From: Helicobacteraceae bacterium
GTDB taxonomy: Bacteria > Campylobacterota > Campylobacteria > Campylobacterales > SZUA-545
DNA length: 64,000 bases
Assembly: GCA_031258155.1 (NCBI GenBank)
Contig: JAIRNH010000019.1
Location: 1-64,000, forward strand
Direction: 5' to 3'
Made by a program: the position numbers and the translations under genes
The notes under the pieces: generated by a model
Told to the model about the DNA's origin: nothing
Database searches by the model: none
What the model saw: the letters and a program-made list of their open reading frames with translations, nothing else
Shown: one piece after another, positions 573 through 15,671 of the stretch
How positions within the stretch are numbered: the first letter of the stretch is position 1
How the letters are laid out: each line of letters starts with the position of its first letter

Positions 573-695
573 CTAATCGCTCCGACGATCTTTGTTAGAG
601 ATGTTGCGAAGGCACAAATACGCGCCGAGCCATAGCGCCAAAACCGCGATCGCGGTAACTACGTTAAGCCAAATCGGAACCGGTTGGCTAAACAA
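573..695 (-). CDS. Small single-helix membrane protein overlapping ileS
   Basis: A 40-residue ORF starts at a TTG (695-693) that overlaps the last codons of ileS, with AAGGAG seven bases upstream. The product has a short polar start (MFSQPVPIW), one hydrophobic helix at about residues 10-29 and a basic, polar tail ending in KDRRSD, so it should sit in the inner membrane with the tail in the cytoplasm. The overlap and the Shine-Dalgarno site imply translational coupling to ileS. I recall a small membrane ORF after ileS in Campylobacter but cannot confirm homology. Function unknown. Confidence 0.6.
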   Translation of the reverse strand: MFSQPVPIWLNVVTAIAVLALWLGAYLCLRNISNKDRRSD

Positions 696-3447
696 CGCCG
701 CTCTCCTTCGCCAAAGCCGCGCTTAGCGCCTCGTTGCACCGATCGCACGGCTCGTTCTCTTTAGCGGATACATATTTCCAACAGCGCGGGCATTTATGCA
801 GATCGCTTTTAACCGCGATCGCTCCGTCGATCGAAACGATCGCCTCGCGATCTTGCGCGTCAGTTTTCGCCCACGAAATTGTCAGCCAATCGCACAGGTC
901 CTCAAGCGGCAGATCGAGTTTCAGCGCGGGATCGATAATAACTCCAAGCTCCAGCGTGTTTTTGACTACGCCGCTCTTTTTTAGCGCGTCGATCTGCGTA
1001 AAAAACCGCTCCCGTAAAGCTAAAAGCGCCGTAAAATCAAACGTTTCCGCGCCGCATTCGATCGGCTTATGCGTAAAATCAAAGATCGTTTCGCCCTCGT
1101 TTTTAATGATCTTCGGCGCGAACTCGACGGCTTCGTCGGCGGTGTAGGTCAGCGCGGGCGCGATCAGCGTCAGCAGATTTCTAACGATATAGTAGATCGC
1201 GCTTTGCGCCGATCGGCGGCGCGGCGAATCGAGCGGATCGCAGTAGATTCTATCCTTGATCATATCCAAATAAACGCCGCTAAGCTCGACTACCACGAAG
1301 CTATGAATTAGATGCAACGCTTTGGAAAAATCATACTCCTTAAACGCGCTTAACGCCTCGTCGCTTACCTTTTTGGCTATGAAAAGTATCCAGCGATCGA
1401 CTACGCCTAGCTTCTCGTAGGCGATCGGCGTTTGTAAATCCTCGATATTTGCCAGCATAAAACGCAACGTGTTGCGCAGTTTTTTATACTGATCGACGGC
1501 TTGGTTGAGGATATTTTGACTGATCTTGACCTCGGCGCGGTAGTCGCTCGTCGCCGCCCACAGCCGCAAAATCTCGCTCCCCATTTTGCCTACGACGTCG
1601 CTGGGATCAACGCCGTTGCCTTTGGATTTGCTCATCTTTTCGCCCTTTTCATCCACCGTAAAGCCGTGCGTCAAGATGGTTTTATACGGCGCCTCGCCGC
1701 GCGCGGCGCACGAGACCAATAGAGAGCTTTGAAACCAGCCGCGATGCTGATCGCTTCCCTCCAGATACATATCCGCGGGAGCCGCTCCGGCGTCGTAATC
1801 GCCGCTTCGCAAAACCGCCGATTGCGTCGAGCCGCTATCAAACCACACGTCGAGAATATCCGTTACTTTTTCGTATCGGGCGGGGTCGTAATCTTCGGTT
1901 AGGAAATCAGCGATCGGGCGCGTTACCCAGCTATCGCACCCCTCCTTTGCGAAAATCGCGGCGGTTTTGTCCAACACGCGATCGTCAAGTAGGATCGCGC
2001 CGCTTTTTGTATCGCGCAAAAAGGCGATCGGCACGCCCCAGTCGCGCTGGCGCGAGATACACCAATCGGGTCGCGTCGCTATCATCGATCGCAGGCGGTT
2101 GCGCCCGCTTTGGGGATAGAACTTCACGCCCTCGATCGCCGCGATCGCCGTTTCGCGCAGGGTTTTGCCGCCCAGATAAGGCTCGTCCATAGCAATAAAC
2201 CACTGCTTGGTGGCGCGGTATATGACGGGCTTGCGCGTGCGCCAGCAGTGCGGATAGCTGTGCGTAATTTTCTCGCGCCTTAGCAGCGCCGCGTCCAGCT
2301 TTTCGACGATAATCTCGTTTGCTTTGAATACGTGCGTTCCGACAAAACTTTGCGGATCGGGCAGTAGCTTCTCCTCGACAACGCTCCGATCAAAACAGCC
2401 GCGCTCGTCAACGGGCATAACTACGGGCAGATTGTATTTTAGCCCGACGCGGTAGTCCTCCTCGCCGTGTCCGGGCGCGGTATGCACCAGCCCCGTTCCG
2501 TCCTCCATGCTAACGTGATCGCCCAAAATCAACAGGCTTGCGCGGTTATTTAGCGGATTTACCGCCTCCAGCCGCTCGAAGGTTTTGCCCTCGAACTCCC
2601 TAACGATCGCGCCTTTGATTACGTCTTGCGCGATCAGGGCGTCGTAGCGGTCCTTGGCGACGATAAACTCGTCGTCCGTAAGCGCGTATATCGCGTCGCT
2701 TTTTAGCGCGATCGCCACGTTGGCGGGCAAAGTCCAAGGGGTGGTCGTCCAGATAACCGCTTTGGCGCTCTTGATCCCAAGTTTGGCGAGGCTTGCCTTG
2801 GTTAGATCGAAACCAACAAAGATCGAATCGCTCTCCTTGTCCTGATACTCCACCTCCGCTTCGGCTAGCGCCGATTGCGCCGCCCACGACCAATAGACCG
2901 GTTTTTTGCGCTCGATCAGCAAGCCCGCCTTTGCGACGCGCGCAAGCTCTTTGTATATTTCCGATTCAAATCTGTAGTCCATCGTGATGTAGGGTTTGTC
3001 CCAATCGGCGATCGCGCCAAGCGATATAAAACTCTCTTTTTGTATTTGCGCGTATTTCGCGGCGTGTTCCCTGCAAAGGCGGCGGATCTCCGCTTTGCTC
3101 GTTTGCGCCTTGTCTTTGCCGAGCGCGGTCTCCACCTGCTGTTCGATCGGCAGTCCGTGGCAGTCCCAGCCGGGGGTGAAGCGCGTATCAAAACCCTGAA
3201 AGTAGTAAAACTTGACGGTAATATCCTTTAGGATTTTATTAAGCGCGTGTCCGATATGGATCGCGCCGTTGGCGTATGGCGGTCCGTCGTGAAAGGTCCA
3301 TAGCGGCGCGCCTTTGCGGTTTGCCTTCATCTTTTCGTATATCTTGTTTTCAGACCATTTTTTATAGCGCTTAGGCTCGTTTTGCGTTAGATCCGCGCGC
3401 ATAGGAAACCGCGTCTGCGGCAGAAACAGCGTGCTTTTGTAGTCCAT
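688..3447 (-). CDS. ileS: Isoleucine--tRNA ligase
   Basis: This class I synthetase charges tRNA-Ile in the cytoplasm and edits misactivated valine. At 919 residues it has normal bacterial length. HIGH is at residues 64-67 within GPPYANGAIHIGH, the editing domain fills the middle, and KMSKS lies in GEKMSKSKGN in the C-terminal half of the catalytic core. The anticodon-binding helical domain follows. The C-terminus keeps the zinc-ribbon pairs CPRCW and CDRCN of the bacterial type. A small membrane ORF overlaps its 3' end, and the SDR gene lies 13 bases upstream, so it may be the distal part of a leftward unit. Confidence 0.97.
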   Translation of the reverse strand: MDYKSTLFLPQTRFPMRADLTQNEPKRYKKWSENKIYEKMKANRKGAPLWTFHDGPPYANGAIHIGHALNKILKDITVKFYYFQGFDTRFTPGWDCHGLPIEQQVETALGKDKAQTSKAEIRRLCREHAAKYAQIQKESFISLGAIADWDKPYITMDYRFESEIYKELARVAKAGLLIERKKPVYWSWAAQSALAEAEVEYQDKESDSIFVGFDLTKASLAKLGIKSAKAVIWTTTPWTLPANVAIALKSDAIYALTDDEFIVAKDRYDALIAQDVIKGAIVREFEGKTFERLEAVNPLNNRASLLILGDHVSMEDGTGLVHTAPGHGEEDYRVGLKYNLPVVMPVDERGCFDRSVVEEKLLPDPQSFVGTHVFKANEIIVEKLDAALLRREKITHSYPHCWRTRKPVIYRATKQWFIAMDEPYLGGKTLRETAIAAIEGVKFYPQSGRNRLRSMIATRPDWCISRQRDWGVPIAFLRDTKSGAILLDDRVLDKTAAIFAKEGCDSWVTRPIADFLTEDYDPARYEKVTDILDVWFDSGSTQSAVLRSGDYDAGAAPADMYLEGSDQHRGWFQSSLLVSCAARGEAPYKTILTHGFTVDEKGEKMSKSKGNGVDPSDVVGKMGSEILRLWAATSDYRAEVKISQNILNQAVDQYKKLRNTLRFMLANIEDLQTPIAYEKLGVVDRWILFIAKKVSDEALSAFKEYDFSKALHLIHSFVVVELSGVYLDMIKDRIYCDPLDSPRRRSAQSAIYYIVRNLLTLIAPALTYTADEAVEFAPKIIKNEGETIFDFTHKPIECGAETFDFTALLALRERFFTQIDALKKSGVVKNTLELGVIIDPALKLDLPLEDLCDWLTISWAKTDAQDREAIVSIDGAIAVKSDLHKCPRCWKYVSAKENEPCDRCNEALSAALAKESGVV

Positions 3448-13959: not shown

Positions 13960-14226
13960 GCGTCATACCCGCGCGAGAACGACAATGCGCGCCATATCGC
14001 GTCCCCTCCGTCATACCCGCGCGGAGCAAGCGCGAGCGCTTCGTAATCGCGAAGGAAGGCTGGTATGCTCTCGTCATACCCGCGTGGGCAGGTATCCATC
14101 TTTTTGATGATCGTTGTTGTGGGTTCTCACATTTTGTTAAGTCTAATAGAAATAGATTCCCGCTTTCCTACGCGCCTCGCGCCCCTATCAAAGCGGGCGT
14201 TTCGCGGGAACGACAGGGGGGGGGGG
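13960..14226. repeat. Cluster of REP-like elements
   Basis: At least three GTCATACCCGCG arms occur, with partner arms such as CGAGAACGAC (13974-13983) and CGGGAACGAC (14205-14214), so each unit is an imperfect hairpin. Related copies lie near 19565-19690, 27003-27032, 40440-40480 and 41090-41150. The type GTCATTCCCGCG...CGGGAATGAC is widespread in bacteria as a REP/MITE-like element. None is inside a gene. Confidence 0.75.
14216..14226. repeat. G11 homopolymer
   Basis: Eleven consecutive G follow a REP-like arm. Such tracts are hypermutable in Campylobacterota and often sit in contingency genes. This one is in non-coding DNA, about 310 bases beyond the 3' end of the lipoprotein gene. Confidence 0.9.
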
Positions 14227-14533
14227 CTGAAATATAAGCGGCGGTTGGCTTGCAGTTTGGCGGTTATGTCGCGTTACTTATTGGAGCGCGCATTGTCGTT
14301 CTCCGGACTTTGGCGCGCAACGCGAAAAACAGACGCTAGTCGCCCGATTGCCGTTATCCCAAGTTAACGAAGCGCTATATCGCCTTCTTTTGCCCTTTCC
14401 AATTTTCCCGCCCTCGTCTGTTTTCATTGTTTCGGCTACGCGAGCGCTAAGCGCCAAATTGGAACGAGACCATAGCCCCCGCCTTAGTCAAAGCGGGGTT
14501 AGCGCTAACGAAGGCTAGATCGCATAAAGCGGC

Positions 14534-15393
14534 TTACCATATTTTTGTAAAGTCCGTCGCTTTCGAAGCGTCCAAAATCCTGCCGTTCTCATTTACGCCA
14601 ATAATCGGCGTTACGGTTATGTTGCCGTCCGTCTTAGTCGCGTATTGAAAAGCTTCCGCTCCGTATGGCGGCAGAAAGATAAAGAATACGTCGTTAATCG
14701 TCGAGTATTGGAACTGCATAGACATATACGGATCAACCGACAAGTACTGATAGTCGCCGTTTGGCAAGAAGACCTGAATCGTCTTAGAGTAACCGTCGTC
14801 TTCGGTTTCTGGCGGCAGTAGCGCTTGCCACGCTCCGGTTAGATTATTGTCCGCGTTGGACGGCTTCGAGAGATCCGCGGCAATGTCTTGCTTAATAATC
14901 TGCGAGCTAGCTTTGCGCTTAAACGACGTCGTATTTTCAGCCGTAAAGCCTCCAACACCGTCAAACTCGCCCTCGGTAACGCTGATGGTATTGTTGTCGA
15001 TCACCGCGTAGGAATACGCGGCGATTCCCTCAAAGTCAAAGAAGGTTACTTGATAGCCGTCTTTAACGACATACGCGCCCGTAAAAACGCCCAAACCGGC
15101 GAAACTCACTTCGACGGTTCCGTTGGTTTCAAATTTGAAATCCGCCGTCGCGCTCATGCTGGGAATGTACGCGTTCCACTCGCCGAGAAACGGGTTTTCT
15201 AGCTCTGAAAGCCAGACCTCTTCGGTTTGGGAGTTACCCCCCCCCCCCCCCCCGTCAGATCGCAGCCTAACAGGGCGAAGCTCGCCGCAACTAAACCAAG
15301 CGCGGTAATCGTCGCGCCAATCGTTTTGAGGATAAAGACGCTTGCGAAAACGCTTTTCGCGCCAATCCTAAAAACGCGGCTACGCCAGATCAA
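14534..15393 (-). CDS. Phase-variable lipoprotein, OFF as sequenced
   Basis: Two reading frames form one gene when the C17 tract (15237-15253) changes length. The first part starts at TTG 15393 and encodes a lipoprotein signal (FILKTIGATITALGLVAASF, then the lipobox LLGC) followed by DLT and a poly-Gly run. As sequenced it shifts into a frame stopping at 15199. The second frame is open from the tract, reading NSQTEEVWLSELENPFLGEW and on to the stop at 14534, about 235 residues of beta-rich, lipocalin-like repeats. Fifteen or 18 C would join them. The mature protein would be a surface or periplasmic lipoprotein of unknown role. Confidence 0.8.
15237..15253. repeat. C17 tract (poly-G on the coding strand)
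   Basis: Seventeen C lie just after the lipobox region of the leftward lipoprotein gene and encode poly-Gly in any frame. Bookkeeping of frames shows 17 is out of frame, while 15 or 18 would restore one continuous protein. Tracts this long slip at high rates in Campylobacterota. Confidence 0.95.
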
Positions 15394-15671
15394 GTAATGA
15401 ATCGGCGCGAGCTACCGATCTCGCGCGGCGGGCGCGGCGTAAATTTAGCGGCGCGTTGGAGCGAATTGCGACCGAATAGATAGGACAAGCGGACTGCCGT
15501 TTGTCGGGGCGGCAAAGGGAAAATTGCGCGCTCGAATTCATAAGAGAAACGATTCGTAACTTAACGAGCGGGAGAAACAAACAATATTAGTTGTATAAAG
15601 GCTCGATTTAGGAATACTAGCGCGTTATTTATTCTTTCCGCGATATGGCGTTGCCTGTCGAAGCCGCATAT
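15394..15671. other. Upstream region of the lipoprotein, no gene seen
   Basis: About 280 bases lie between the nickel transporter operon and the lipoprotein start. I see no coding sequence with a credible start or known motif; the short open frame within it looks like chance. It should hold the lipoprotein promoter, but no clear TATAAT-like box stands out. Confidence 0.5.

Follow-up and report, generated by a model that had tools for sequence, protein, structure and literature searches.

A homopolymeric G tract separates two reading frames of a probable phase-variable lipoprotein gene in an uncultured Campylobacterales genus

The locus analyzed here raises the question of why a predicted lipoprotein should be encoded in two reading frames that meet at a run of a single base, and whether such a run switches the gene, results from an error of sequencing, or belongs to a gene that has been disabled. 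The stretch of DNA examined (64,000 nucleotides; hereafter the window) is from contig 19 of a 1.94-Mb assembly (71 contigs, 96.8% complete). Read along the minus strand, the coding order is signal peptide, lipobox LLGC, D-L-T, 17 G, and body, and the features are as follows:

15254..15393, minus strand: signal-peptide segment; the TTG at 15393 is the sole in-frame start and has no Shine-Dalgarno match
15262..15273, minus strand: lipobox L-L-G-C, then Asp at +2 (GCDL or GCDI in all four orthologs)
15237..15253, minus strand: putative slippage-site tract, G17 on the coding strand (C17 on the plus strand), from the run scan and the same position in orthologs
14534..15236, minus strand: 233-residue body and stop, in the other frame at 17 G, from reading frames, models, and dN/dS
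15300..15420, minus strand: counterpart of the orthologs' hairpin-like block, ribosome-binding site, and ATG or GTG, not detectable in the window copy
L071 (G9), L072 (G17), and L073 (G16): ortholog tracts at the same position

The open reading frame that carries the signal and lipobox extends from the TTG at 15393 to a stop at 15199, ending in FALLGCDLTGGGGGVTPKPKRSGFQS, and the body frame is open from 15235 to 14534, reading NSQTEEVW...TKIW and a stop. These coordinates bear out the sequence-only reading, which had placed the meeting of the two frames at C17 and called 17 an out-of-frame length, although that length comes from a short-read consensus and may be off by one; the body it had put at 235 residues counts 233. 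Tract lengths of 15 or 18 join the anchor frame to the body frame, as is expected where a simple sequence repeat within the coding region governs translational phase variation. Such runs are rare in the window: apart from C17 and an intergenic G11 there is no G or C run longer than six, and C8 is matched at 14 overlapping positions, against 0.31 expected in shuffles.

Other repeats were observed in the window. The G11 run (14216-14226) lies between dapF and the lipoprotein gene, amid CGTCATACCCGCG repeats and with no convincing open reading frame, and a perfect inverted repeat with arms of 18 nt is found in the same stretch (13975-13992 / 14286-14303). An (AG)19 run at 101-138, some 550 bases past the point where a minus-strand ileS-like gene (688-3447) terminates, lies in no open reading frame of more than 45 residues and is a further candidate repeat locus.

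The anchor has the predicted features of a lipoprotein signal peptide, with a hydrophobic stretch followed by LLGC, LVGC, or LIGC in four orthologs, among which the Asp after the lipobox Cys is constant. In Escherichia coli, Asp at +2 after the Cys keeps lipoproteins in the inner membrane, so surface exposure of this lipoprotein is not certain. The tract lies three codons behind the predicted lipidated Cys, and its in-frame lengths encode glycine, supporting the proposal that it doubles as a Gly linker behind the lipid anchor. Two other lipoproteins in the genome have a Gly linker written in mixed GGA/GGC/GGT codons, with a tract before the signal peptide, so a linker of this kind does not require a homopolymer in the window gene.

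Comparison with orthologs shows that the tract is conserved in position and varies in length. The ortholog in G003 (65% identity) has G9 in frame within a natural full-length open reading frame with ATG and ribosome-binding site; that in G002 (about 50% identity) has G17 in frame and a full open reading frame; and that in G006 (about 45% identity) has G16 and is out of frame. The series is thus G9 ON, G17 ON, G16 OFF, and window G17 OFF, a comparison made across species only, with one assembly per species. Since the run recurs in sister species at other lengths, of which some are in frame, we interpret it as an on/off switch. G001 retains a C-terminal part of the gene with a stop, the gene of G004 is truncated where its contig ends, and no copy was found in G005; six of the seven genomes of the genus have the gene. 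It was absent from the other genomes sampled in the order; one weak match outside the genus was lost in a profile search. A scan of named genomes with a single sequence gave no match, and with an alignment it returned five records, all of them MAGs titled Helicobacteraceae or Campylobacteraceae bacterium. Isolate names suggest that the sister MAGs may derive from insect gut (termite).

The sequence-only reading described the locus as a second contingency locus. The contingency locus stands, since the genome holds 51 runs, most of them in genes, and the orthologs have 9, 16, and 17 bases in mixed phase; “second” is too low, as some fifty such loci exist. The 51 G/C runs, each at least nine bases long (50 with a preceding base and one at a contig edge), have a median length of 14, many being of 14-16. 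Open reading frames of at least 150 residues cross 32 of them in some phase, the assembled length being in frame for 13 and out of frame for 19; this is a raw count, in which a few spanning frames are doubtful (contig ends, or a run late in the frame). Pfam matches were obtained for 17 of 20 bodies tested (counting L037, which falls below the curated cut-off) and mostly denote envelope functions: TonB receptors, glycosyltransferases, acyltransferases, O-antigen ligase, and FkbM and TylF methyltransferases, together with a subtilase, an RCC1-repeat lipoprotein, and a TetR regulator. All seven genomes of the genus carry 26-60 tracts; elsewhere in the family the counts are 26-53 for one genus and 0 or 1 for the others.

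Indirect signs of changing tract length come from pairs of runs elsewhere than the lipoprotein locus. L052 and L063 have identical flanks (60/60 on both sides) and tracts of 14 and 15, and L032 and L047 have tracts of 16 and 15 with flanks 100% and 92% identical, although a single-base consensus error is possible for both of these pairs. L036 and L039 (14 and 11) share a right flank identical over 60 bases and differ on the left. L052:78 and L063:3017 mark the start of an outer-membrane-protein-like gene in two contigs of the assembly; as they differ farther upstream, they are either two copies or loci, or variants of one population. L031, L036, and L039 are different genes whose 5' parts directly behind the tract are nearly the same (GGG(G)LLALITAL...), which looks as though a leader with its tract had been copied between genes. 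Of the 51 runs, 18 are no more than 120 bp away from a contig end, against 0.45 expected, so that the assembly breaks at runs, through either mixed lengths or difficult reading.

The body is under purifying selection, with no relaxation on the window lineage. Its dN/dS is about 0.26 against G003 and 0.18-0.40 over all ortholog pairs, values that are rough because dS is near or above 1; lineage-specific nonsynonymous and synonymous changes number 43/31 in the window copy, against 40/39 for the sister whose gene is ON (p=0.42). The sequence-only reading had looked to lipocalin-like families. Body models (mean pLDDT 66 and 57) contain strands in two sets, with eight or nine to a set; sequence searches gave no Pfam or NCBIfam family above cut-off and no family from the PDB. 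The best fold matches, over the whole length of the body model, were DUF4822/lipocalin-like proteins of Enterococcus faecalis (PDB 4nw4, E 2.2e-5; 4kh8, E 1.7e-4), and the G002 ortholog model matched 4nw4 with E 3.4e-6; the likeness is limited to 10-14% identity and a TM of about 0.5 with a low-confidence model. The G002 ortholog also matched DUF5640 (E 0.0018), below the family cut-off. With modest confidence, we predict that the body consists of two tandem small beta-barrels of lipocalin-like form, which may serve in ligand binding or as an antigen. No paralogs were found in the organism's own genome.

The start of the gene is a different matter. Three orthologs share a conserved upstream block (AAGGTATTGATTGC..AATATC), which is followed by a Shine-Dalgarno sequence and by ATG or GTG, and local alignments of upstream DNA score 56-72 between ortholog pairs. 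The window upstream DNA scores 28.7-37.4 against the orthologs, which is chance level (shuffle means 32.5-33.3), and the core of the block was not found at the corresponding place in this genome. The joined frame of the window copy is devoid of ATG. A missing Shine-Dalgarno match is weak evidence taken alone, because a third of the long ATG open reading frames in the window (13 of 38 of 200 or more residues, by the same count) also have none. Searched as a repeated element, the window upstream DNA gave short chance-level matches only. The neighborhood of the gene differs as well: it is downstream of a cbiQ-like transport operon in the window, upstream of that operon in G003, and elsewhere in the other species compared. 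Expression by read-through from the cbiQ operon was considered and is not supported; the operon ends in a terminator-like stem (consensus match only). Together, the missing 5' block, the lack of a Shine-Dalgarno match at the TTG, and the changed neighborhood suggest that the gene has moved, leaving its start behind. L095 and L096 (1-420), contigs of two MAGs from the same sample, have the end of the gene in common: the lipoprotein contigs match exactly over their initial 119 bases, differ increasingly after that, and are unrelated in sequence beyond the stop codon, so that the same gene lies in different places; divergence just past the stop is expected for a gene that changes place.

We conclude that the gene, which belongs to an uncultured Campylobacterales genus, very probably encodes a phase-variable lipoprotein; it is OFF by frame in the window and probably also deprived of its native start signals. 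Slipped-strand mispairing in the G tract behind the lipidated Cys would shift the reading frame; fitting lengths would yield a lipid-anchored body whose Gly linker varies in length, and non-fitting lengths only a short peptide, exported and possibly lipidated. Support for phase variation by slippage is good, and slippage at the lipoprotein locus itself we infer; lipidation and a role at the surface are likewise presumed. The window allele is OFF by frame at 17 as assembled, its native start signals probably lost after a move beside the cbiQ-like operon, and slippage alone may therefore not turn it ON. The earlier proposal that 15 or 18 restores expression without other change thus holds for the joining of the frames; it may not hold for switching this allele ON, since the copy lacks the ancestral ribosome-binding site and start codon. 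The allele may be doubly silent, and the switch may at present be disconnected in the window species. An unlikely extension is that the tract both switches the protein and sets the length of the tether that holds the body to the membrane, so that display of the lipoprotein would be graded; in-frame Gly counts are 3 in G003 and 6 in G002.

How far the silence of the window copy goes bears on a serious possibility, which we rate at somewhat under even: that it is a recently disabled allele, whose promoter, ribosome-binding site, and start were removed by relocation and whose tract then drifted, the genus as a whole still being phase-variable. The missing 5' block, the TTG with no Shine-Dalgarno match, the neighbors that differ among the species compared, the partial copy with stop in G001, and the lack of a copy in G005 all fit such a history, which is countered by the 233 intact codons, by a dN/dS of 0.26 and a ratio of changes (43/31) close to that of the ON sister, and by the frequency of long ATG frames that also have no Shine-Dalgarno match.

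The other alternatives deny an OFF state altogether. The sequence-only reading had itself raised the prospect of a true length fixed at 18, with 17 as a sequencing or assembly error in a plain constitutive lipoprotein gene. Homopolymers of such length are error-prone in a short-read MAG, and Gly linkers behind lipoboxes do occur in other lipoproteins of the genome; yet those linkers use mixed codons and need no pure G run, the ortholog lengths of 9, 16, and 17 cover both phases, and about fifty further runs are present, making a fixed length quite improbable. Programmed frameshifting or transcriptional slippage could, in principle, yield full-length protein at any tract length, as long homopolymers can make RNA polymerase slip. 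Nothing specific to this locus was found for or against such an explanation; the many tract lengths in the genome's envelope genes, some in frame and some not, resemble classical phasomes, and we regard it as highly improbable. A gene that is very probably phase-variable, and OFF by frame in the window, is the reading we retain.

The design is already known from HpuA, the haemoglobin-receptor lipoprotein of Neisseria, which has a poly-G from nt 57 after the ATG (PMC3783016). Both are lipoproteins switched by a poly-G in the N-terminal part of the gene, with a tract in some species and none in others; the window gene differs in having no adjacent TonB partner gene, a longer tract, and two small predicted barrels. 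HpuA was absent from the profile-search matches and from the fold matches listed, and no sequence relation was found. The same system at genome scale is the Campylobacter poly-G/C phasome, in which PhasomeIt finds 5-81 phase-variable genes per strain with tracts mostly of 9-10 bases, 13-15 being rare (PMC6321876). The genus studied here belongs to the same order and likewise has G/C tracts in envelope genes across the genome; its median tract is longer, and the lipoprotein gene is restricted to it. A literature search for phase variation in Campylobacterota of the termite gut brought up no paper.

The individual gene is thus an ordinary example of its kind, one lipoprotein that retains its switch through a divergence of half its sequence and a change of place in the genome. 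More broadly, an uncultured Campylobacterales genus, a relative of Helicobacter and Campylobacter, has a phasome that equals the one of Campylobacter in size, has longer tracts, and is directed at the same envelope functions; phase variation would become testable beyond the well-studied vertebrate-associated species.
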